A stretch of 64,000 nucleotides of DNA from Dactylosporangium siamense (lineage in GTDB: Bacteria; Actinomycetota; Actinomycetes; Mycobacteriales; Micromonosporaceae): the NCBI RefSeq assembly GCF_016862795.1, contig NZ_BONQ01000168.1, forward strand, positions 1 through 64,000, written 5' to 3'. Below the pieces are notes generated by a model that saw only the letters and a list, made by a program, of their open reading frames with translations, was not told the origin of the DNA and did not search any database. This document shows, in pieces, positions 5,561 through 50,128 of this stretch (position 1 is its first letter; each line of letters starts with the position of its first letter). The translations under genes and the position numbers were made by a program.

Positions 5561-6847
5561 TTACCGACCAGCAATCGGAGCGTAATCCCGTGCGCCGTAA
5601 CCGATATACACCTGACGCGGACGGCCGATCTTGGTCTCCGGGTCGTTGATCATCTCACGCCACTGGGCGATCCAGCCGGGCAGCCGGCCGAGCGCGAAGA
5701 GGACGGTGAACATCGTGGTCGGGAAGCCCATCGCCTTGTAGATGAGGCCCGTGTAGAAGTCGACGTTCGGGTACAGCTTGCGGGAGACGAAGTACTCGTC
5801 CGACAGCGCGATCTCCTCGAGCTGCATCGCCAGGTCCAGCAGCGGGTCGGGCTTCGCCATCCGGCCGAGCACCTCCTGCGCGGCCTTCTTCACCAGTGCC
5901 GCGCGGGGGTCGTAGTTCTTGTACACACGGTGACCGAAGCCCATGAGGCGGGTGGCGGTGTCCTTCTTGTCCTTGACCCTGCTGACGAACTTGGCGACGT
6001 CGCCGCCGTCCTCGCGGATCACCTGGAGCATCTCCAGGACCGCCTGGTTGGCACCGCCGTGCAGCGGGCCGAACAGCGCGTTGACGCCGGCGGACACCGA
6101 CGCGAACAGGTTCGCCTGGCTGGAGCCGACGAGCCGGACCGTGGACGTCGAGCAGTTCTGCTCGTGGTCCGCGTGCAGCAGCAGGAGCATGTCGAGGACC
6201 TTGACCGCGACCGGGTCGATCTCGTACGGGGTCGCCGGGACGCCGAACGTCATGCGCAGGAAGTTCTCGACGTAGCCGAGAGAGTTGTCCGGGTACAGCA
6301 TCGGCTGCCCGATCGCCTTCTTGTAGGCGTAGGACGCGATGGTCGGTACCTTCGCCATCAGCCGGATCGTGGAGATCTCGACCTGCTCCTGGTCGAACGG
6401 GTTGAGGCTGTCCTGGTAGAACGTGGACAGCGCGCTGACCGCGGAGGACAGCACCGCCATCGGGTGGGCGTCGCGCGGGAAGCCGTCGAAGAAGCGGCGC
6501 ATCTCCTCGTGCAGCAGCGTGTGGTGCTGGATGCGGGAGGTGAAGTCCTCGAGCTGGGCCGGCGTCGGCAGCTCGCCGTGGATGAGCAGGTAGGAGCTCT
6601 CCAGGAAGGTCGACCGCTCGGCGAGCTGCTCGATCGGGTAGCCCCGGTATCGCAGGATGCCGGCGTCGCCGTCGATGTACGTGATCGACGATACACAGGA
6701 GGCGGTGTTGACGAATCCGGTGTCGAGCGTGACCTGACCGGTGTCCTTGAGCAGTTTGCCGATCTCGAGACCAGCGGGCCCTTCCGTTGCCTTGCGTGCC
6801 GGCAGGTCGAGCTCGCCGTCCGGGTAGGTGATCTTGTACTCACTCAT
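5561..6847 (-). CDS. gltA: Citrate synthase (type II, hexameric-type)
   Basis: A 428-residue enzyme condensing acetyl-CoA and oxaloacetate to citrate, the entry step of the TCA cycle. The catalytic residues are visible: H263 in GPLHGGANQ, H306 in GFGHRVYK and D363 in NVDFYTG. Length and N-terminal beta-rich extension fit the type II enzymes common in actinobacteria and Gram-negatives. The ATG at 6847 begins the conserved N-terminus (MSEYKITYPDG); the 43 codons upstream are not family sequence. Transcribed alone leftward, with about 290 bp of upstream DNA shared with the divergent surface-protein gene. Confidence 0.96.
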   Translation of the reverse strand: MSEYKITYPDGELDLPARKATEGPAGLEIGKLLKDTGQVTLDTGFVNTASCVSSITYIDGDAGILRYRGYPIEQLAERSTFLESSYLLIHGELPTPAQLEDFTSRIQHHTLLHEEMRRFFDGFPRDAHPMAVLSSAVSALSTFYQDSLNPFDQEQVEISTIRLMAKVPTIASYAYKKAIGQPMLYPDNSLGYVENFLRMTFGVPATPYEIDPVAVKVLDMLLLLHADHEQNCSTSTVRLVGSSQANLFASVSAGVNALFGPLHGGANQAVLEMLQVIREDGGDVAKFVSRVKDKKDTATRLMGFGHRVYKNYDPRAALVKKAAQEVLGRMAKPDPLLDLAMQLEEIALSDEYFVSRKLYPNVDFYTGLIYKAMGFPTTMFTVLFALGRLPGWIAQWREMINDPETKIGRPRQVYIGYGARDYAPIAGR

Positions 6848-7615: not shown

Positions 7616-8277
7616 CGCCGAGGCACCGGCCGCGGCACATGCTCGTCAGGTCCAACGGGACCTGGCGGGGCGGCACCGTGGTCGGCGTCATCACCCTGGC
7701 CGTCAGCGGTGTCTCGTTGATCGGCGCCGGCTACGGCACGCCCGCACCGCCGCCGGTCGTGGAGTCCAGCGCCTCCACCGGACTGGGTTCCGCCACGCAG
7801 GCTCCCGCCTCGCCGCCGGTCGGGCTCAGCATCGCGGCGATCTCCGTCGACGCGCCGGTCGAGCGGGTCGACGTCGACCGCGACGGCACCCTGATCCCGC
7901 CGTCGCTGCGGACGGCCTCCCAGGTCGGCTGGTATGAACGGGGGCCCACCCCCGGCGAGACCGGCAACGCCGTGCTCGTCGGCCACGTCGACACCGCCAA
8001 CAGCGGACCGGCGGTGTTCTACCTGCTCGGCCGGCTCAAACCCGGCGATCTCGTCACGGTGCGCCGCAGGGACCATTCGACGGTCACGTTCGCCGTCGAC
8101 GGCGTGCGCCTCTACCCGAAGCAGGCGTTCCCGGCCGACCTGGTCTACGGCCCCGCGGACCGGCCCCAGCTGCGGCTGGTCACCTGCGGCGGCACCTTCG
8201 ACCGGGCGACCACGACCTACTCCGGCAACACCGTGATCACCGCGACGATGGTGTCCTGGCGAGCCGCTCCAGGGTGA
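7612..8277 (+). CDS. Class F-type sortase
   Basis: A 221-residue protein: short cytoplasmic tail, transmembrane anchor (about residues 20-40), Pro/Ser/Ala linker, then the sortase beta-barrel. The catalytic histidine is H125 in LVGHVDT and the nucleophile is C192 in LVTCGGTFD. Short spacing and a TCGG motif fit actinobacterial class E/F enzymes rather than housekeeping SrtA. The GTG at 7612 overlaps the upstream stop as GTGA; an ATG at 7639 is the alternative start. Its last 41 bases overlap, on the opposite strand, the end of the flavohemoglobin-like gene. Confidence 0.85.
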   Translation: MTPRHRPRHMLVRSNGTWRGGTVVGVITLAVSGVSLIGAGYGTPAPPPVVESSASTGLGSATQAPASPPVGLSIAAISVDAPVERVDVDRDGTLIPPSLRTASQVGWYERGPTPGETGNAVLVGHVDTANSGPAVFYLLGRLKPGDLVTVRRRDHSTVTFAVDGVRLYPKQAFPADLVYGPADRPQLRLVTCGGTFDRATTTYSGNTVITATMVSWRAAPG

Positions 8278-41763: not shown

Positions 41764-43113
41764 TCAGGTCAGTGACGCGGCGAACGCGGCCACGGCGGCG
41801 TCGAGTTCATCGTATGCGGCGGCGGTGGTGATGCCGCCCTCGCGACGGCGGTCCACCAGCTGGTTGCGGAGCCGGTCGACGCGCGGCCCGGCGTCGACCG
41901 GCTGTCCCATGATGTTGTTGACCTGGTTGCGGATGTCGCCGGCGACGTCGGTGCGGATCTCGCCGGCGGCGGAGCGGCGGTCGACGACGTCGAGGACGGC
42001 CTGGCCGGCCTGCTGCGGGCTGAGCCTGGACGTCGCCGGCGACGACGGCGGCAGCGACGACGGCTGGCCCGTCGTGGCGCCGGCGGACGGGGTGCGGCCC
42101 CGGGTCGGCGTGGGGGTGGCCGCCGGCGTCGGCTGGACCGTGACCGCCGGTGGGATCGACACGACGATGCTCACCTTCGGGGCCGGGGCGGTGGTGTCGC
42201 GCCGTGCACTGTCGCGCCACACGTAGCCGAGCCCGGCCAGCACCGACGCCGCCAGGACGACGGCGAGCACCGTGACCCACCGGCGGCGGCCGCGTTCTGA
42301 CGCCGATTCCAGGATGGCCGCGACCTCGGCGGCGGTGGGACGTTCCGTGGGGTCGGTGGCGAGGCAGCGCAGGCAGGCGGAGGCGACGGCGGGCGGGAGG
42401 CCGGGCACGTTGAGGGCGGGCCGCTGGTCCAGAGCGACGGCCCGCTCGAGCTCGTCCCAGGTGCCGGCCTGCACGGGCGGTGCGCCGGTGAGCATCTCGA
42501 ACAGCAGCACGCCGAGCGCGTACACGTCGGTGGAGCCGCTGGCGGGCGCGCCGACGAGCCGCTCCGGCGCGACGTAGGGCGGGGTGCCGAACGTCAGCGT
42601 GTCGCGCTGGCCGACGTCGGCGGCGATGCCGAAGTCGAGCAGCTTGACGCCGTCGGTGGTCAGCATGACGTTCTCGGGGGTGACGTCGCGGTGCACGACG
42701 CCGCGGCGGTGCGCGGCGTGCAGCACGTCGGCGACGGTGGCGGCGACCGCGACGGCGTCCACCCAGGGCAGCGGGCCCTCGGCGAGCCGGCCGGCGAGGG
42801 AGACGCCGTCGAGCAGCTGCATGACGACGTACGCGGCGATGCGCCCGTGCGGGGTGACCGTCTCGCCGTAGTCGTAGACGCCGATCGCGTTGGGGTGCTC
42901 GATCCGTGCGGCGGCGCGGGCCTCGCGGCGGATCCGCTCCCGCTGGCCGCCGTCGGTGCCGACCGGGCCGTCGAGGACCTTGACGGCGACGGTGCGCTCC
43001 AGGTTGGAGTCCCAGGCCCGCCACACGACGGACATGCCGCCCGCGCCGACGGGTTGTCTCAGGATGTACCGGCGGGCCAGGACGTCGCCCTGCCGGAGCT
43101 GACCGTCATGCAT
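41764..43113 (-). CDS. Transmembrane Ser/Thr protein kinase
   Basis: 449 residues. Kinase domain about 14-270: VGAGGMSVVW, AVKVL with K45, catalytic loop VHRDVTPENVML, DFG, FGTPPYVAPE. The lysine usual at HRDxK is Thr. One transmembrane helix at about 277-300 leads to a Pro/Thr/Ser-rich stalk and an outside helical domain of about 90 residues (SPQQAGQAVLDVVDRR ... YDELDAAVAAF). ATG 43113 is chosen; GTG 43116 is adjacent and in frame. It begins only a few bases after the LacI gene stop, so the two form an operon. Confidence 0.88.
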   Translation of the reverse strand: MHDGQLRQGDVLARRYILRQPVGAGGMSVVWRAWDSNLERTVAVKVLDGPVGTDGGQRERIRREARAAARIEHPNAIGVYDYGETVTPHGRIAAYVVMQLLDGVSLAGRLAEGPLPWVDAVAVAATVADVLHAAHRRGVVHRDVTPENVMLTTDGVKLLDFGIAADVGQRDTLTFGTPPYVAPERLVGAPASGSTDVYALGVLLFEMLTGAPPVQAGTWDELERAVALDQRPALNVPGLPPAVASACLRCLATDPTERPTAAEVAAILESASERGRRRWVTVLAVVLAASVLAGLGYVWRDSARRDTTAPAPKVSIVVSIPPAVTVQPTPAATPTPTRGRTPSAGATTGQPSSLPPSSPATSRLSPQQAGQAVLDVVDRRSAAGEIRTDVAGDIRNQVNNIMGQPVDAGPRVDRLRNQLVDRRREGGITTAAAYDELDAAVAAFAASLT

Positions 43114-43120
43114 CACGTCG

Positions 43121-44304: not shown

Positions 44305-45123
44305 GTGTCGGAGATCGAGCTGGGGCGCCGGGTGCTGGAGCGCTTCCTGCTCGTCCGACCCATCGCTCGCGGCGGCATGTCACTCGTCTATGAGGCCGTC
44401 GACCTCGAGGAGCTGCGCCCCGCCGCGGTGAAGGTCCTCGCACCGGCGTTCGCCAACAACGGCCGGGCCGTCCACTCCGCCCGCCGGGAACCCCTGCTCA
44501 TGCAGCGGATGCGGCATCCCACGGTGCCCAAGATCTTCGGGTACGGCGAGCTCGACACCGGCCGCGCCAGCGTCCCGTGCGTAGCGATGGAGCTGCTCAA
44601 CGGCGTACCGCTGACAAAACGGCTGGCCGAGGGACCGCTGCCGTGGCAGCACGCCGTCGAGATCGCCGCGTCCGTCGCCGAGCTCCTCGCCGTGGCGCAC
44701 CGCCGGGGCATCGCGCACCGCGACCTGACCGCCGACAACGTCATGCTGACCACCGCCGGCGTGAAGATCATCGACTTCGGGCTCGCGGTGCCCTTCGCGC
44801 ACCCGGCGGCCTCCCGCATCGAGCACGCCCCGGCCTGGGACGTCTACGCCCTGGGTGTGCTGCTGTACCAGATGCTCACCGGACGCTCACCGCACGCGCC
44901 GGGCGCCAGGTTGCTGCAACCGGTGGCCACGCCGGTCCTGCTCGCGCCCGGACTACCACGCTCCGTAGCGGAGCTGTGCCGGCAGTGCATGGCCAAGCGG
45001 CCGGCGGACCGACCCGAGAGTGCCAGGGTCGCCCTGTCGCTCTGGGCAGAGTTCGCACCCGACTGGCAACACCCCACGTCCTTCACTGAGAGCTACCGCA
45101 CACAGTCGCACCACTCTGCGTAG
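44305..45123 (+). CDS. Soluble, atypical Ser/Thr kinase-like protein lacking the APE motif
   Basis: 272 residues, no transmembrane helix. P-loop IARGGMSLVYEA, AAVKVL lysine, RREPLLMQRM helix C glutamate, loop AHRDLTADNVML (Thr for the usual Lys) and DFGLA are present. After DFG the chain goes through FAHPAASRIEHAPAWDVYAL, skipping the GTPxYxAPE activation and P+1 segment entirely. Activity is therefore uncertain; it may be a pseudokinase or use an unusual substrate site. GTG start. Divergent from the LacI-kinase operon and upstream of the polysaccharide cassette. Confidence 0.8.
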   Translation: MSEIELGRRVLERFLLVRPIARGGMSLVYEAVDLEELRPAAVKVLAPAFANNGRAVHSARREPLLMQRMRHPTVPKIFGYGELDTGRASVPCVAMELLNGVPLTKRLAEGPLPWQHAVEIAASVAELLAVAHRRGIAHRDLTADNVMLTTAGVKIIDFGLAVPFAHPAASRIEHAPAWDVYALGVLLYQMLTGRSPHAPGARLLQPVATPVLLAPGLPRSVAELCRQCMAKRPADRPESARVALSLWAEFAPDWQHPTSFTESYRTQSHHSA

Positions 45124-45165
45124 TCGCCGAGTTTTGCCTGCGTAAGGGCTCTGTCAGGTCGTTGG

Positions 45166-45180
45166 GCGGACTTGGTCCGC
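45166..45180 (+). terminator. Small hairpin after the atypical kinase
   Basis: GCGGAC-TTG-GTCCGC, a perfect 6-bp stem with 3-nt loop 43 bp past the stop. It could end the kinase transcript before the polysaccharide cassette. Confidence 0.35.
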
Positions 45181-45313
45181 TCGGGTGCATCCGACCATCC
45201 TCACCCATTGTGATTGCCCCTCGGTCGTTCCAAGCTTCTCGGACAAGGTGCACAACGGTTGCCAGCAAGGAGCCGGGAAGCACCGCCGGAGAGATAGCCG
45301 AGGGGAAGCTGTC
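45181..45313 (+). promoter_or_regulatory. Leader region of the polysaccharide cassette
   Basis: 133 bp before the LPVTG microprotein gene, with lower GC around 45195-45250. GGTGC (45248-45252) and GCACC (45287-45291) could pair across a purine-rich interior, suggesting a structured leader. I could not match it to a known riboswitch class. AGGGGAAG (45301-45308) is the ribosome site. Confidence 0.35.
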
Positions 45314-45481
45314 ATGTCAGGTACGAAGGTCACCGGCGTCGTCGTGACCGGTGGATCCACCGCCGCGTCGCTGCCAGTCACCGGAAGCCCCGTCTTCGCC
45401 ATCGTCGTCGCAGGTGTCGCGCTCGTCGTCACCGGCTTCCTGATGGTGCGGGCGTCCCGCTTCAACCGCAGCGCCGCCTGA
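45314..45481 (+). CDS. 55-residue LPXTG-type microprotein
   Basis: Sequence features: a 19-residue polar N-terminus (MSGTKVTGVVVTGGSTAAS), then LPVTG at 20-24, a hydrophobic segment SPVFAIVVAGVALVVTGFLM and a basic tail RASRFNRSAA. This is a complete C-terminal cell-wall sorting signal with almost no mature protein in front and no N-terminal signal peptide. The GT2 synthase starts 3 bp after its stop, so they are co-translated. A sortase (one is encoded at 7612) would release about 20 residues. It may instead act as a small membrane partner of the synthase. AGGGGAAG precedes the ATG. Confidence 0.75.
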   Translation: MSGTKVTGVVVTGGSTAASLPVTGSPVFAIVVAGVALVVTGFLMVRASRFNRSAA

Positions 45482-45484
45482 CGC

Positions 45485-46795
45485 ATGACGGCGATCCTTC
45501 TGGTCGGCTTCGCGCTGCTGACGCTCTGGCCGGCATACAACCTGGCGCTGGTGGCCTTCACCACCCGCGACTCGGCCACTGCCGGCCGGCGCCGCCGGCG
45601 CGACGCCGTCGCGCCGAACCAGCACGAGCCGCTGACCTTCTGGATCGTCGTGCCCGCCCTCAACGAGGAACGGGTTGTCGGCCGGACCGTCTCCGCCGCA
45701 CTGGCGTTGGCGGGCCCGGCGGGCACACGCACCAGGGTCCTGGTGGTCGATGACGGATCGGACGACGGCACCCCGGACGTCCTCGCCGCCATCGACCACC
45801 CGGGTTTGACCGTGCTGCGCCGGGACTTCCCCAACGCCCGCAAGGGCAAGGGCGAGGCGCTCAACGCGGCCTTCCGGACGATCCGCGACCTGACCCTGCG
45901 CTACGGCGAGGACCCGGCGCTGGTCGCGGTCGGCGTCATCGACGGCGACGGGCGGGGCAGCGACAACATCCTCACCGAGGTGTCGCGGCAGATGCGCGAC
46001 CCGCAGGTCGGGGCGGTGCAGACCCGGGTGCGCATCCACAACCGCAACCGCGTCCTGGGCGCCGTGCAGGACCTCGAGTTCGCCGCCATCGCCAACGCCA
46101 GCCAGCTGCTCCGCAACGCCGCGGGGACGGTCGGACTGGGCGGCAACGGGCAGTTCGCCCGGCTGTCGTCGCTGATGCGGCTCGGCGACGCGCCCTGGTC
46201 GCACTGCCTGGTCGAGGACCTCGAGCTCGGGCTGCGCATGCACCTCAACGGCGAGCGCATCCGGTACACCTCGATCGCCAACGTCAGGCAGCAGGGGCTC
46301 GTCGACGTGACGCGGCTGCTGCGCCAGCGCACCCGGTGGGCCCAGGGCAACCTGCAGTGCGTCGGCTACGTGCCGAAGCTGATCGCCTCCCGGAAGATCC
46401 GCAACCACGCCCTGCTGGAAATGCTGTACTACCTGCTCGCGCCGTGGATGAACGCCTTCGGCACGGCCGCGGTCTTCGGCCTCTGGGCGGTCGCGATGTG
46501 GCGGCTGGTCCCCGGCCACGGACGGACCATCATGATCCACTCGTGGTCGCAGATGGGTCACGTCGCACTCTTCTGGGCGCTCGGCATGACCCTCCCCGGC
46601 CTGGTCTGGGCCCTGGTCCACCGCTTCCAGCTCGGCGACGAGAAGCTCTGGCGACTGCTGGTCGCCGCCGTCGCGTACCCCTTCTTCCTCCTGCTCGGCC
46701 TGGTCTCGACCTGGCGGGCGATCGGCCGGCAGGTCAGCCGGCGACAGGCCTGGGCGAAAACCGAACGCCTGGTCGAAGAGCCCGCTCTCTCGTAA
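45485..46795 (+). CDS. Processive GT2 glycosyltransferase (polysaccharide synthase)
   Basis: 436 residues. One N-terminal membrane helix, a cytoplasmic GT-A domain and three or four C-terminal helices. Catalytic motifs: WIVVPALNEE, VVDDGSDDGT, GVIDGDGRGS (metal-binding DxD type), ED in LVEDLELG and the QxxRW-type motif QRTRWAQGN. This is the cellulose/hyaluronan/poly-N-acetylglucosamine synthase group, which polymerises and exports a glycan. Genes for a UDP-GlcNAc 2-epimerase and a secreted deacetylase-like protein follow, suggesting an N-acetylhexosamine polymer. The exact sugar is inferred. Confidence 0.9.
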   Translation: MTAILLVGFALLTLWPAYNLALVAFTTRDSATAGRRRRRDAVAPNQHEPLTFWIVVPALNEERVVGRTVSAALALAGPAGTRTRVLVVDDGSDDGTPDVLAAIDHPGLTVLRRDFPNARKGKGEALNAAFRTIRDLTLRYGEDPALVAVGVIDGDGRGSDNILTEVSRQMRDPQVGAVQTRVRIHNRNRVLGAVQDLEFAAIANASQLLRNAAGTVGLGGNGQFARLSSLMRLGDAPWSHCLVEDLELGLRMHLNGERIRYTSIANVRQQGLVDVTRLLRQRTRWAQGNLQCVGYVPKLIASRKIRNHALLEMLYYLLAPWMNAFGTAAVFGLWAVAMWRLVPGHGRTIMIHSWSQMGHVALFWALGMTLPGLVWALVHRFQLGDEKLWRLLVAAVAYPFFLLLGLVSTWRAIGRQVSRRQAWAKTERLVEEPALS

Positions 46796-46808
46796 AGGAC
46801 GTCAGCAC

Positions 46809-47978
46809 ATGTCTCCCGAAGTCTTCCTCATCGCCGGTACCCGCCCCGAGGCCATCAAGCTGGCGCCCGTCGCCGCCGCGATGCGCGCCGCCGGCCGGCT
46901 CACCCCGGTGCTGGTCGCCAGCGGGCAGCACCCGACGATGGTGACCCAGGCCCTCGACGCGTTCGACGTCCAGGCCGACGTGACCCTGCCGCTGGAGCGG
47001 GTCACCGGCAGCCAGCCCGAGCTCCTCACGTCGATGATCTCCTCCCTGGACGCCCTGCTCGAGGAGCGCAAGCCGGCCGCGGTCGTCGTGCAGGGCGACA
47101 CCACCACGACGCTCGCCGGTGCCATGGCCGCGTTCTGGCGGCGCATCCCGGTCGTGCACCTCGAGGCGGGGCTGCGCTCCGGCGACCTGGACTCCCCGTT
47201 CCCGGAGGAGGCCAACCGCAAGCTCGTCGGCCAGCTCGCCGCGCTGCACCTGGCGCCGACCGCCCTCGCCGCGACGAACCTCCTCGACGAGAGCGTCTCC
47301 CCGGCCAACGTCCTCATCACCGGCAACACGGTCGTGGACGCCGCGCTGGAGATCGCCGGCAAGGCGATGCCGTTCGAGAACCCCTCCGTGGCGGCCGCGG
47401 TCGACGCCGCGACCCATGGTGAGGCCCGGCTCGTGCTGGTCACCGCGCACCGCCGCGAGTCGTGGGGCGAGCCCCTGGACCGCATCCTGAGCGCGGTGCG
47501 CCGCCTGATCGAGGCCTACCCCGACATCCGGGTCGTCCTGCCGGCGCACGCCAACCCCGCGGTCCGCGCCCAGGTCGAGGCCGGCCTCGCCGGGGTGCCC
47601 CGGGTGACGATCACCGACCCGCTGCCCTACCCGGCCCTGGCGCGACTGCTGTCCAACGCGTACCTGGCGCTCACCGACTCCGGTGGCATCCAGGAGGAGG
47701 CGCCGTCGTTCAAGGTGCCGGCCCTGGTCCTGCGTGAGGTCACCGAGCGCGTCGAGTCGCTGCACGCCGGTTGCGCCAAGCTCGTCGGCACGGACGAGGA
47801 CCTGATCGTCGCCGAGGCGGCCCGCCTGCTCGACGACCCGATCCTGCGCCAGTCGATGACCGCCAACGGCAACCCCTACGGCGACGGACTCGCCTCCCAG
47901 CGCACCGAGCAGGCCGTGGCCGCACTCCTGGGCCTCGCCTCGCACCCCGCCCCCATGCCGACCACCGTTTCCGTCTGA
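46809..47978 (+). CDS. wecB: UDP-N-acetylglucosamine 2-epimerase (non-hydrolysing)
   Basis: 389 residues, standard WecB/MnaA length. Motifs: IAGTRPEAIKLAPV, VVQGDTTTTLA, VHLEAGLRSGD, EEANRKL, ITGNTVVDA, VTAHRRESWG and LTDSGGIQEEAP. It interconverts UDP-GlcNAc and UDP-ManNAc in the cytosol. AAAGGA lies ahead of ATG 46809, 13 bp after the GT2 stop. Located between the synthase and the deacetylase-like gene, it should supply UDP-ManNAc to this cassette. Confidence 0.95.
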   Translation: MSPEVFLIAGTRPEAIKLAPVAAAMRAAGRLTPVLVASGQHPTMVTQALDAFDVQADVTLPLERVTGSQPELLTSMISSLDALLEERKPAAVVVQGDTTTTLAGAMAAFWRRIPVVHLEAGLRSGDLDSPFPEEANRKLVGQLAALHLAPTALAATNLLDESVSPANVLITGNTVVDAALEIAGKAMPFENPSVAAAVDAATHGEARLVLVTAHRRESWGEPLDRILSAVRRLIEAYPDIRVVLPAHANPAVRAQVEAGLAGVPRVTITDPLPYPALARLLSNAYLALTDSGGIQEEAPSFKVPALVLREVTERVESLHAGCAKLVGTDEDLIVAEAARLLDDPILRQSMTANGNPYGDGLASQRTEQAVAALLGLASHPAPMPTTVSV

Positions 47979-47998
47979 ATTAGGGATCTCGTACCGAC

Positions 47999-49600
47999 AT
48001 GCGCAAGCTGATCAGTTCGCTCGCCGCCGTCACCGTGGCCGCGTCGCTCGCTCTCACCGTGCCGGCCACCCAGGCCTTCGCCGCCGCGCCCACCGCGACG
48101 CGCTCCGGCACCGGCGCCCCCGGCTCCAACGCCGCGACCAAGACGCTCGTCCTGTACGACAACACCGGCCCGTACTCGTGGCTCGGTGAGGACTACGGGA
48201 CGATGGCGACGAACCTCGTCTCGCACTTCGGCTCCTGGACCGCGCACCCGGTCGGCGCCTACAAGGCCGGCGAGATGGCCGCGTACTCCGCCGTCGTCTA
48301 CGTGGGCTCCACCTACGACGAGCCGCTGCCGACCGCGTTCCTCGACGACACCCTCGCGGGCACCAAGCCGGTCGTCTGGATGTACAACAACATCTGGCAG
48401 CTGACCGCGCGCTCCGCCGACTTCGTCGCCAAGTACGGGTACACCTGGAAGGGCTACGACACCTCCGCCGTCTCCACCATCGAGTACAACGGCACGAAGA
48501 TGACCCGCGACGTGCGCAACGCCGGCGGCATCATGGACTACGTCATCTCCGACCCGGCCAAGGCCGTCGCCGTCGGCACCGCGGTCGGCGCCGACGGCAC
48601 CACGTTCCCGTGGGGCATCAAGTCCGGCAACCTGACCTACCTCGGCGAGATCCCGCTGTCCTACATCACGTCGAACGACCGCTACCTGGCGTTCTCCGAC
48701 CTGCTGTACTCGGTCCTCGCGCCGCAGACCGCCGCCCGCCACCGGGCCCTGGTCCGCATCGAGGACGTCGGCCCCGACGCCGACCCGGCCGAGCTGCGCG
48801 CCGTCGCCGACTACCTGTCGTCGAAGAACGTCCCGTTCACCGTCGCCGTCTACAGCCGCTACCGTGACCCGAAAGGTGTGAACAACAATGGCAAGGCCGA
48901 GGACTACACGCTGCGCCAGCGGCCACTGGTGGTCAGCGCCCTGAAGTACATGCAGAGCAAGGGCGGCACCCTGCTCCAGCACGGCTACACCCACCAGCTC
49001 GACGCGCTCAACAACCCCTACGACGGGGTCAGCGCCAACGACTTCGAGTTCTTCATGGCCCACGTCGACGCCAACGACGCCGTCATCTACGACGGCCCGG
49101 TGAAGAACGACTCGGCGCTCAACGTCACCGCCCGCGTCCTGGCCTCCCGCGCCGACTGGATGCTCGCCGGCCTGAAGCAGCCGACCATCTTCGAGTTCCC
49201 GCACTACGCGGCGAGCGCCCTGGACTACAAGACGATCAACTCGCTCTACAGCACCCGCTACGAGCGCGGCCTGTACTTCCCGGGCGTCCTGTCCGGCGGC
49301 ACCGTCGACAACAGCACCGCGCGCATGGTCGGGCAGTTCTTCCCCTACACCGTCCGCGACGTCTACGGCACGACCGTCGTCCCGGAGAACATCGGCAACA
49401 TCGAGCCCGAGCCGTTCAACCAGCACCCGGCGGTCCTGCCGGCCGACCTGATCGCGAACGCGAAGACCAACCTGGCGGTCCGGGACGGCGTGGCGAGCTT
49501 CTTCTACCACCCGTACCTCGGCACCGACTACCTCAAGCAGACCGTGGAAGGCATCCAGGGTCTGGGCTACACCTTCGTCTCCGCCGCCGCGATGTCGTAA
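47999..49600 (+). CDS. Secreted DUF2334-type polysaccharide-deacetylase-like protein
   Basis: 533 residues. Sec signal peptide MRKLISSLAAVTVAASLALT, cleavage near AFAAAP (about residue 30). The N-terminal 220 residues resemble a glutamine-amidotransferase-like or sensor fold. The C-terminal part is a DUF2334/NodB-like barrel with LVRIEDVGPDADPAEL (metal aspartate), LLQHGYTHQLDALNNPYDG (metal His pair), FEFPHYAAS and FFYHPYLG. It probably deacetylates or hydrolyses the exported glycan outside the membrane, as IcaB/PgaB do. It is the last gene of the cassette, followed by a strong terminator. Confidence 0.85.
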   Translation: MRKLISSLAAVTVAASLALTVPATQAFAAAPTATRSGTGAPGSNAATKTLVLYDNTGPYSWLGEDYGTMATNLVSHFGSWTAHPVGAYKAGEMAAYSAVVYVGSTYDEPLPTAFLDDTLAGTKPVVWMYNNIWQLTARSADFVAKYGYTWKGYDTSAVSTIEYNGTKMTRDVRNAGGIMDYVISDPAKAVAVGTAVGADGTTFPWGIKSGNLTYLGEIPLSYITSNDRYLAFSDLLYSVLAPQTAARHRALVRIEDVGPDADPAELRAVADYLSSKNVPFTVAVYSRYRDPKGVNNNGKAEDYTLRQRPLVVSALKYMQSKGGTLLQHGYTHQLDALNNPYDGVSANDFEFFMAHVDANDAVIYDGPVKNDSALNVTARVLASRADWMLAGLKQPTIFEFPHYAASALDYKTINSLYSTRYERGLYFPGVLSGGTVDNSTARMVGQFFPYTVRDVYGTTVVPENIGNIEPEPFNQHPAVLPADLIANAKTNLAVRDGVASFFYHPYLGTDYLKQTVEGIQGLGYTFVSAAAMS

Positions 49601-49619: not shown

Positions 49620-49651
49620 GGCCGGGCCCTGTCCAGGGGGCCCGGCCTCTT
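49620..49651 (+). terminator. Terminator of the polysaccharide cassette
   Basis: GGCCGGGCCC / GGGCCCGGCC, perfect 10-bp arms (49620-49629, 49638-49647) with an 8-nt loop and TCTTTC after, 20 bp past the DUF2334 gene stop. Confidence 0.8.
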
Positions 49652-49713: not shown

Positions 49714-50079
49714 TCAGGTTTCGAGGAGGAGCTCGGGCATGAGGCGTTCGACGGCATACAGGTCGTAGACGCGGCGGACCTCGCAGATCAGGCCCGACTC
49801 CGTCAGCACCAGGAACTCGGCGAGGCGGAACTGCTCCGCGTCGACCGCGCAGTCGTAGACGAGGGCGACGCGCCGGTCGATCACGGTCCGGGAGAAGACC
49901 GAGACCGACGTCAGGGCGGCGGCGTAGCCGGTGAGCTTCTCGATGAAGTCGCCGTCGGGGTCCAGGTTGGACTCGACCCGGGCGCCGGCGGCGAGCAGCA
50001 TGAACAGCCCGCTGGTGCGGCCGGTGGTCCAGGCCGCGACCCAGCGCGCGGCGACATCCTCAACAGCGGTCGCGTCCAT
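49714..50079 (-). CDS. NTF2-like (SnoaL-type) protein
   Basis: 121 residues: helix EDVAARWVAAWTTGRTSGLF followed by a strand-rich half (VESNLDPDGDFIEKL ... RRVALVYDCAVDAEQFRLAEFLVL split over strands). This is the cone-shaped NTF2 fold used by SnoaL-type isomerases and stress proteins. No catalytic residues can be assigned. ATG 50079; the in-frame GTG at 50082 is less likely. Divergent from the GH88 gene, with the LacI-type operator between them. Confidence 0.7.
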   Translation of the reverse strand: MDATAVEDVAARWVAAWTTGRTSGLFMLLAAGARVESNLDPDGDFIEKLTGYAAALTSVSVFSRTVIDRRVALVYDCAVDAEQFRLAEFLVLTESGLICEVRRVYDLYAVERLMPELLLET

Positions 50080-50128
50080 CACGCGTCATCCTGCCACGCG
50101 CAGGTTCGTCCCCACCCCGGGGTTCTCA

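Follow-up and report, generated by a model that had tools for sequence, protein, structure and literature searches.

A conserved GT2, WecB, and DUF2334 gene set preceded by an LPVTG microprotein gene in Dactylosporangium siamense: a candidate synthase-dependent surface-polysaccharide system

Organization of the locus

The window, i.e., the whole 64-kb stretch of DNA analyzed here, belongs to the 12.7-Mb genome of Dactylosporangium siamense, a soil actinomycete of the Micromonosporaceae. It contains four co-directional genes separated by gaps of 3, 13, and 20 nt. On the plus strand, they encode a 55-aa microprotein with LPVTG at residues 20–24, one transmembrane (TM) helix, and a basic tail (45314–45481), a GT2 synthase (45485–46795; PF13641), WecB (46809–47978; PF02350 and TIGR00236), and a DUF2334 protein with a Sec-type signal peptide (47999–49600; PF10096). 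The ORFs and family matches agreed with the positions given for the four genes in the preliminary description. The tight spacing that it reported was observed in the window but not throughout the congeners, in which the gap between the GT2 gene and wecB ranged from 17 to 262 nt.

A Shine–Dalgarno-like GAGGGGA (45300–45306, plus strand) was identified by eye 5' of the microprotein ATG, and a GC-rich hairpin (49620–49647, plus strand), which is a probable terminator, lies 3' of the DUF2334 gene. The hairpin previously called a strong terminator was indeed strong (−36.6 kcal/mol, z −4.5), but its T run is short and it was not listed as a terminator by a poly-T consensus scan. The 190-nt leader (45124–45313), which had been described as structured, folded no better than its shuffles (z +0.19) and had no match in Rfam, and a structured RNA leader was thus ruled out. 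A reading of the cassette as a defence system was dropped, as no match was found by PADLOC.

The neighbors of the cassette include kinase-like, LacI-type, GH88-like, and SDR genes. Directly upstream lies the gene for a small soluble Ser/Thr-kinase-like protein without a TM helix (44305–45123, plus strand); it was kept only in Dactylosporangium (7 of 7) and two related metagenome bins, and its product is possibly a regulator outside the core. A second Ser/Thr-kinase-like gene was found at 41764–43116 (minus strand), and the two kinase-like genes flank the LacI-type regulator upstream of the cassette. On the other side, a gene for a 122-aa protein (49714–50082, minus strand) is convergent to the cassette. 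This protein had no Pfam match and was NTF2/SnoaL-like by eye only. A homologue was present next to the cassette in 33 of the 47 Micromonosporaceae loci but in none of the 33 Pseudonocardiales-type loci, and it was often co-oriented and directly 3' of the DUF2334 gene; the 122-aa protein is possibly a fifth member of the cassette. The window also encodes a sortase domain (7825–8253, plus strand), approximately 37 kb upstream of the microprotein and directly after the end of an ORF with a TM-basic tail. It belongs to one of the ten sortases encoded in the genome.

Families and predicted folds of the three enzymes

The GT2 protein consists of an N-terminal TM helix, a catalytic domain with the DD, DxD, ED, and QxxRW motifs of a processive synthase, and three C-terminal TM helices. 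The top Foldseek matches of its predicted model (pLDDT 85) were hyaluronan synthases (E 5e-16, TM score 0.72), and the profile alignment with PgaC of E. coli ran from end to end (E 1e-20, 26% identity). A processive fold of the hyaluronan-synthase/PgaC type with a membrane channel is predicted from the model. The locus had been likened to the ica/pga logic, and in terms of family membership this did not stand, as the GT2 protein scored 79 bits against an equivalog cut-off of 422 for PgaC/IcaA (TIGR03937). Its score against the XrtP-associated glycosyltransferase model NF053846 was 295 bits, which is under the cut-off of 520.

WecB exceeded the equivalog cut-off of TIGR00236 (394 versus 210 bits), and its best PDB matches were UDP-GlcNAc 2-epimerases. 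The catalytic residues were found in WecB, and the regions of K17, D97, E119, E133/134, and H214 were conserved with 5dld. Non-hydrolysing UDP-GlcNAc 2-epimerases convert UDP-GlcNAc to UDP-ManNAc. The cassette WecB was the sole copy found in the genome, and three WecG/TagA-type genes located elsewhere are potential users of UDP-ManNAc; thus, the argument connecting WecB to the GT2 synthase is carried by their linkage and not by exclusivity.

The DUF2334 protein comprises a signal peptide, an N-terminal domain, and a CE4/NodB-type domain (approximately residues 247–533). Its model (pLDDT 83) matched CE4/NodB deacetylases with Z scores of 16–20 over 180–224 residues (rmsd 2.4–3.0). The motif residues E255–D256, H328-x3-H332, H402, and H504 were invariant, and D256, H328, H332, H402, and H504 were invariant in 19 DUF2334 sequences. 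D256, H328, H332, and H504 make up the putative Asp-His-His metal set and catalytic His. From the modelled structure, the protein is assigned a fold of the CE4/NodB deacetylase type and is a putative deacetylase. The N-terminus of the Actinoplanes DUF2334 protein resembled a Tat signal (by eye). Sequence searches returned neither a PgaB match nor a PDB match for the DUF2334 protein, and kinship with PgaB was dropped for lack of the former. YdaL of Bacillus subtilis is presumably a DUF2334 protein, and a PF10096 match in the B. subtilis control genome was consistent with this.

Conservation of the three-gene core

All four genes were syntenic in six other Dactylosporangium species. When named genomes were scanned with a GT2 alignment, 80 loci were retrieved, in which WecB adjoined the GT2 gene in 79 and DUF2334 in 75 (within 8 kb, E<1e-20). 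DUF2334 was missing from five loci: two from Streptoalloteichus, one from Planosporangium thailandense, and two whose contig is short or ends there. The core was found in two bacterial families. The GT2, WecB, and DUF2334 genes were on the same strand in the Micromonosporaceae loci, while WecB and DUF2334 were divergent from GT2 in most Pseudonocardiales loci, and DUF2334 preceded GT2 in some Amycolatopsis. As the linkage survives such rearrangements, it argues for a shared pathway over an inherited gene order. The pairing of GT2 and WecB was also found in most loci of a wider class sample. The neighborhood search therefore bore out the proposed co-conservation for GT2, WecB, and DUF2334; that of the LPxTG microprotein was confined to a single clade, where it held in 13 of 13 relatives. 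Tandem DUF2334 pairs were observed in some GT2 loci (L240, L242, and L244).

The LPxTG microprotein

The microprotein follows the pattern MSGTKV...SLPVTG-TM-RASRFNRSAA, which contains a sortase-type sorting signal. It scored 17.3 bits against TIGR01167 LPXTG_anchor (cut-off 15.9, E 0.0055) and matched NF058583 LAXTG_small weakly (29.7 bits, cut-off 65). Its N-terminus (MSGTKVTGVVVTGGSTAAS) is too weakly hydrophobic for a signal peptide, and the sole TM helix comes after LPVTG. A short N-terminal tail, one TM helix, and a basic C-tail would fit a sortase topology with the N-terminus outside, and insertion in this orientation is assumed here.

The identity of the microprotein ranged from 96 to 76% across the six other Dactylosporangium species, with dN/dS values of 0.12–0.36, similar to those of neighboring genes including GT2. 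It was the only small ORF of the LPxTG-TM-basic type within the window. A screen for small ORFs with such tails in 1.33 Mb of related loci retrieved 14, each directly upstream of GT2, versus none in shuffled controls. A chance ORF was ruled out by the dN/dS range and by this screen. LPxTG was kept in 13 of 13 aligned relatives (Dactylosporangium, Virgisporangium, Planosporangium, and related bins) and was invariant across several genera, while the identity at other positions dropped to approximately 40%.

In 20 Pseudonocardiales-type loci, the same slot was occupied by a single-TM protein of approximately 50–75 aa without LPxTG (one with LAGTG). The alignment of the two microprotein groups by hhalign (P 6.5e-4, probability 28%) was only suggestive of homology between them. 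No microprotein was present in 34 Actinoplanes-type and 13 Lentzea-type loci with the core, and the ORFs listed upstream of GT2 in Actinoplanes and Lentzea included none suitable as a hidden one. No sortase was found at the locus, and no exosortase was found at the locus or in the genome. A second LPVTG microprotein of the same genome (54 aa, without a signal peptide) was located on another contig (C87, L027) at 6232–6396 (minus strand) and follows, with a 6-nt gap, the gene for another GT2 (399 aa).

Distant relatives and exosortases

When the microprotein alignment was used for a profile search across the class and the neighbors were inspected, 17 small-frame matches were retrieved; the sequences behind the profile were in part GT2-linked, and the census is therefore biased. 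Thirteen of the 17 were short and lacked a signal peptide, and all 13 adjoined a GT2 gene, with the exosortase gene in between in the exosortase loci. Six of these short LPxTG/LAxTG microproteins lay by a GT2 of the cassette family and seven by other GT2s. The other four matches were longer than 100 aa, had Sec/Tat-type N-termini, and did not adjoin a GT2 gene.

A microprotein, an exosortase-family protein, and a GT2 were neighbors in eight loci, in one of which the microprotein was recognized by the profile only. WecB was close in seven of the eight and DUF2334 in none. The exosortases matched the XrtP/R/S models, and TIGR04178 was over the cut-off in the two that were scanned against NCBIfam; the N-x-x-R and H-x3-G motifs were present in their alignment. 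The loci with DUF2334 were conversely without an exosortase, and the Dactylosporangium clade was mixed, having the microprotein and DUF2334 but no exosortase. In the GT2 tree, these three states formed one group each; the tree was rooted at the midpoint, and the direction of change is not readable from it. In other actinobacteria, a GT2 gene (357–412 aa) was directly followed by an LAxTG microprotein gene in five loci (L199, L201, L203, L205, and L206), and no exosortase was found next to these pairs.

Proposed function and alternatives

We propose that the cassette encodes a synthase-dependent surface-polysaccharide system made up of WecB, the GT2 synthase, and the DUF2334 protein, with the microprotein as a partner of the synthase. 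The scheme as a whole is moderately probable. WecB, as a member of its family, would convert UDP-GlcNAc to UDP-ManNAc. The GT2 synthase would polymerise ManNAc, possibly mixed with GlcNAc, and export the chain through its own channel. The secreted DUF2334 enzyme would N-deacetylate the polymer as it emerges, using a metal coordinated by Asp256, His328, and His332. The microprotein would be a dedicated GT2 partner, a one-helix membrane protein with its short N-terminus outward, and may descend from or converge on the exosortase-associated microproteins that accompany the same GT2 family. In the least certain step, one of the ten sortases may release or link to the wall the outer peptide of approximately 20 residues, which would keep either the synthase or the polymer that it makes at the wall.

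With WecB supplying UDP-ManNAc and with the folds of a synthase and a deacetylase, a ManNAc-containing polymer that is N-deacetylated outside is the best reading of the parts. The ManNAc-containing polymer trimmed outside that was suggested earlier is supported by the co-conservation of the three genes and by the fold searches. An alternative is that WecB serves the genome at large, e.g., for wall glycopolymers of the WecG/TagA type, and that the product of the GT2 synthase is a different polymer, for instance a chain of GlcNAc or glucose. The single WecB found and the three WecG/TagA-type genes would agree with this, as would the nearest family models of the GT2 protein, namely the XrtP-associated glycosyltransferase and PgaC, the latter of which uses GlcNAc. 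A housekeeping role does not predict, however, that WecB stays with GT2 in 79 of 80 loci despite inverted or rearranged gene orders, or that it does so in the distant exosortase-type loci, and we consider this alternative unlikely. It is very improbable that the cassette represents the ica/pga system for poly-N-acetylglucosamine, either as such or in a simple variation: the end-to-end alignment with PgaC and the deacetylase fold of DUF2334 point in that direction, but the GT2 score fell far below the PgaC/IcaA cut-off, PgaB was not matched, and WecB was conserved alongside.

The role of the microprotein within the proposed polysaccharide system is a separate matter, and linkage to the wall through it, which was raised earlier as a possibility, may occur but is not essential to the core. 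The wall-link reading is weakened by the Pseudonocardiales proteins in the same slot that lack LPxTG and by the Actinoplanes and Lentzea loci without a microprotein, and sorting is thus not essential to the core; the distant relatives with adjacent microprotein, exosortase, and GT2 genes strengthen it. PgaD is an accessory subunit of PgaC. The microprotein could likewise be purely an accessory GT2 subunit, with a lineage-specific LPxTG and little or no sorting, and the rest of the cassette would be unchanged. The position and strand of the microprotein are always fixed to GT2, single-TM counterparts without LPxTG precede GT2 in the 20 Pseudonocardiales-type loci, and sortases and exosortases are absent locally, all of which this explanation accommodates. 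It does not account for an LPxTG that is invariant across genera amid otherwise diverging positions or for relatives that pair such microproteins with exosortases, and the GT2 genes kept without any microprotein argue against a strict requirement; a purely accessory role is possible but, in our judgement, somewhat unlikely.

Relation to known systems and implications

The GT2 synthase belongs by homology to the same family as the XrtP-associated glycosyltransferases (NF053846) of the actinobacterial exosortase P/R/S loci, and in the eight such loci an LPxTG/LAxTG microprotein and usually WecB lie by GT2. They differ from the cassette in lacking DUF2334, and the D. siamense GT2 is below the NF053846 cut-off in a genome without an exosortase found. 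In Listeria, a GT2 operon (PssA–E) produces a ManNAc-Gal polymer, Pss (PMC4125290, PMC5039582), and ydaJKLMN of B. subtilis makes a related EPS (PMC13274460, PMC5422440). Both share the GT2 synthase with the cassette, which differs from them in lacking a BcsB-like gene and a c-di-GMP receptor, in including WecB, and in the extra microprotein.

In E. coli, the glycan receptor of phage N4 (NfrA/NfrB) depends on WecB as well as on NfrB, a GT2, and has been proposed to be a ManNAc polymer (PMC8669472). It resembles the cassette in combining a GT2 with WecB; NfrB is not close to the cassette GT2, and their kinship was rejected as too weak a clue to the substrate. We know of no deacetylase or microprotein in the N4 receptor system. 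PgaC/IcaA systems resemble the cassette in the end-to-end PgaC alignment and in a separate exported deacetylase, but the cassette GT2 is of another subfamily, an epimerase is present, and PgaB is not matched by sequence.

Exosortases have been associated with EPS loci from the start (PMC1569441). In these PEP-CTERM systems, a sorting signal with a TM helix and a basic tail likewise occurs beside EPS genes (PMC1569441), whereas the signal in the cassette is an LPxTG on a 55-aa protein without a signal peptide or an exosortase.

In a literature search that was thin in subscription papers, no publication was found on the four-gene set or the microprotein class, on XrtP with exosortase, on DUF2334 with glycosyltransferase, or, for Actinobacteria, on exosortase together with LPXTG and a glycosyltransferase. 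The ManNAc logic of GT2 plus epimerase has precedents (PMC8669472, PMC5039582) and is less novel than the preliminary description suggested. Among synthase-dependent EPS systems, we consider the set a new variant that is accompanied by an apparently undescribed class of microprotein partners.

A broader reading, which we offer tentatively and hold doubtful, is that actinobacteria possess a class of signal-peptide-free LPxTG/LAxTG microproteins (48–75 aa) dedicated to GT2s and processed by exosortases or sortases depending on the lineage, that the peptide tethers the glycan or synthase to the wall, and that the exosortase has been replaced in Dactylosporangium. If this is true, glycan assembly and protein sorting would be one coupled system.

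The very strong gene linkage ties a family of membrane polymer synthases to UDP-ManNAc and gives a testable product to GT2s for which NCBIfam has no name beyond XrtP-associated. For actinobacterial exosortases and sortases, the microproteins are a minimal candidate substrate that recurs next to glycan synthases, which bears on the reason for the association of exosortases with exopolysaccharide genes (PMC1569441).
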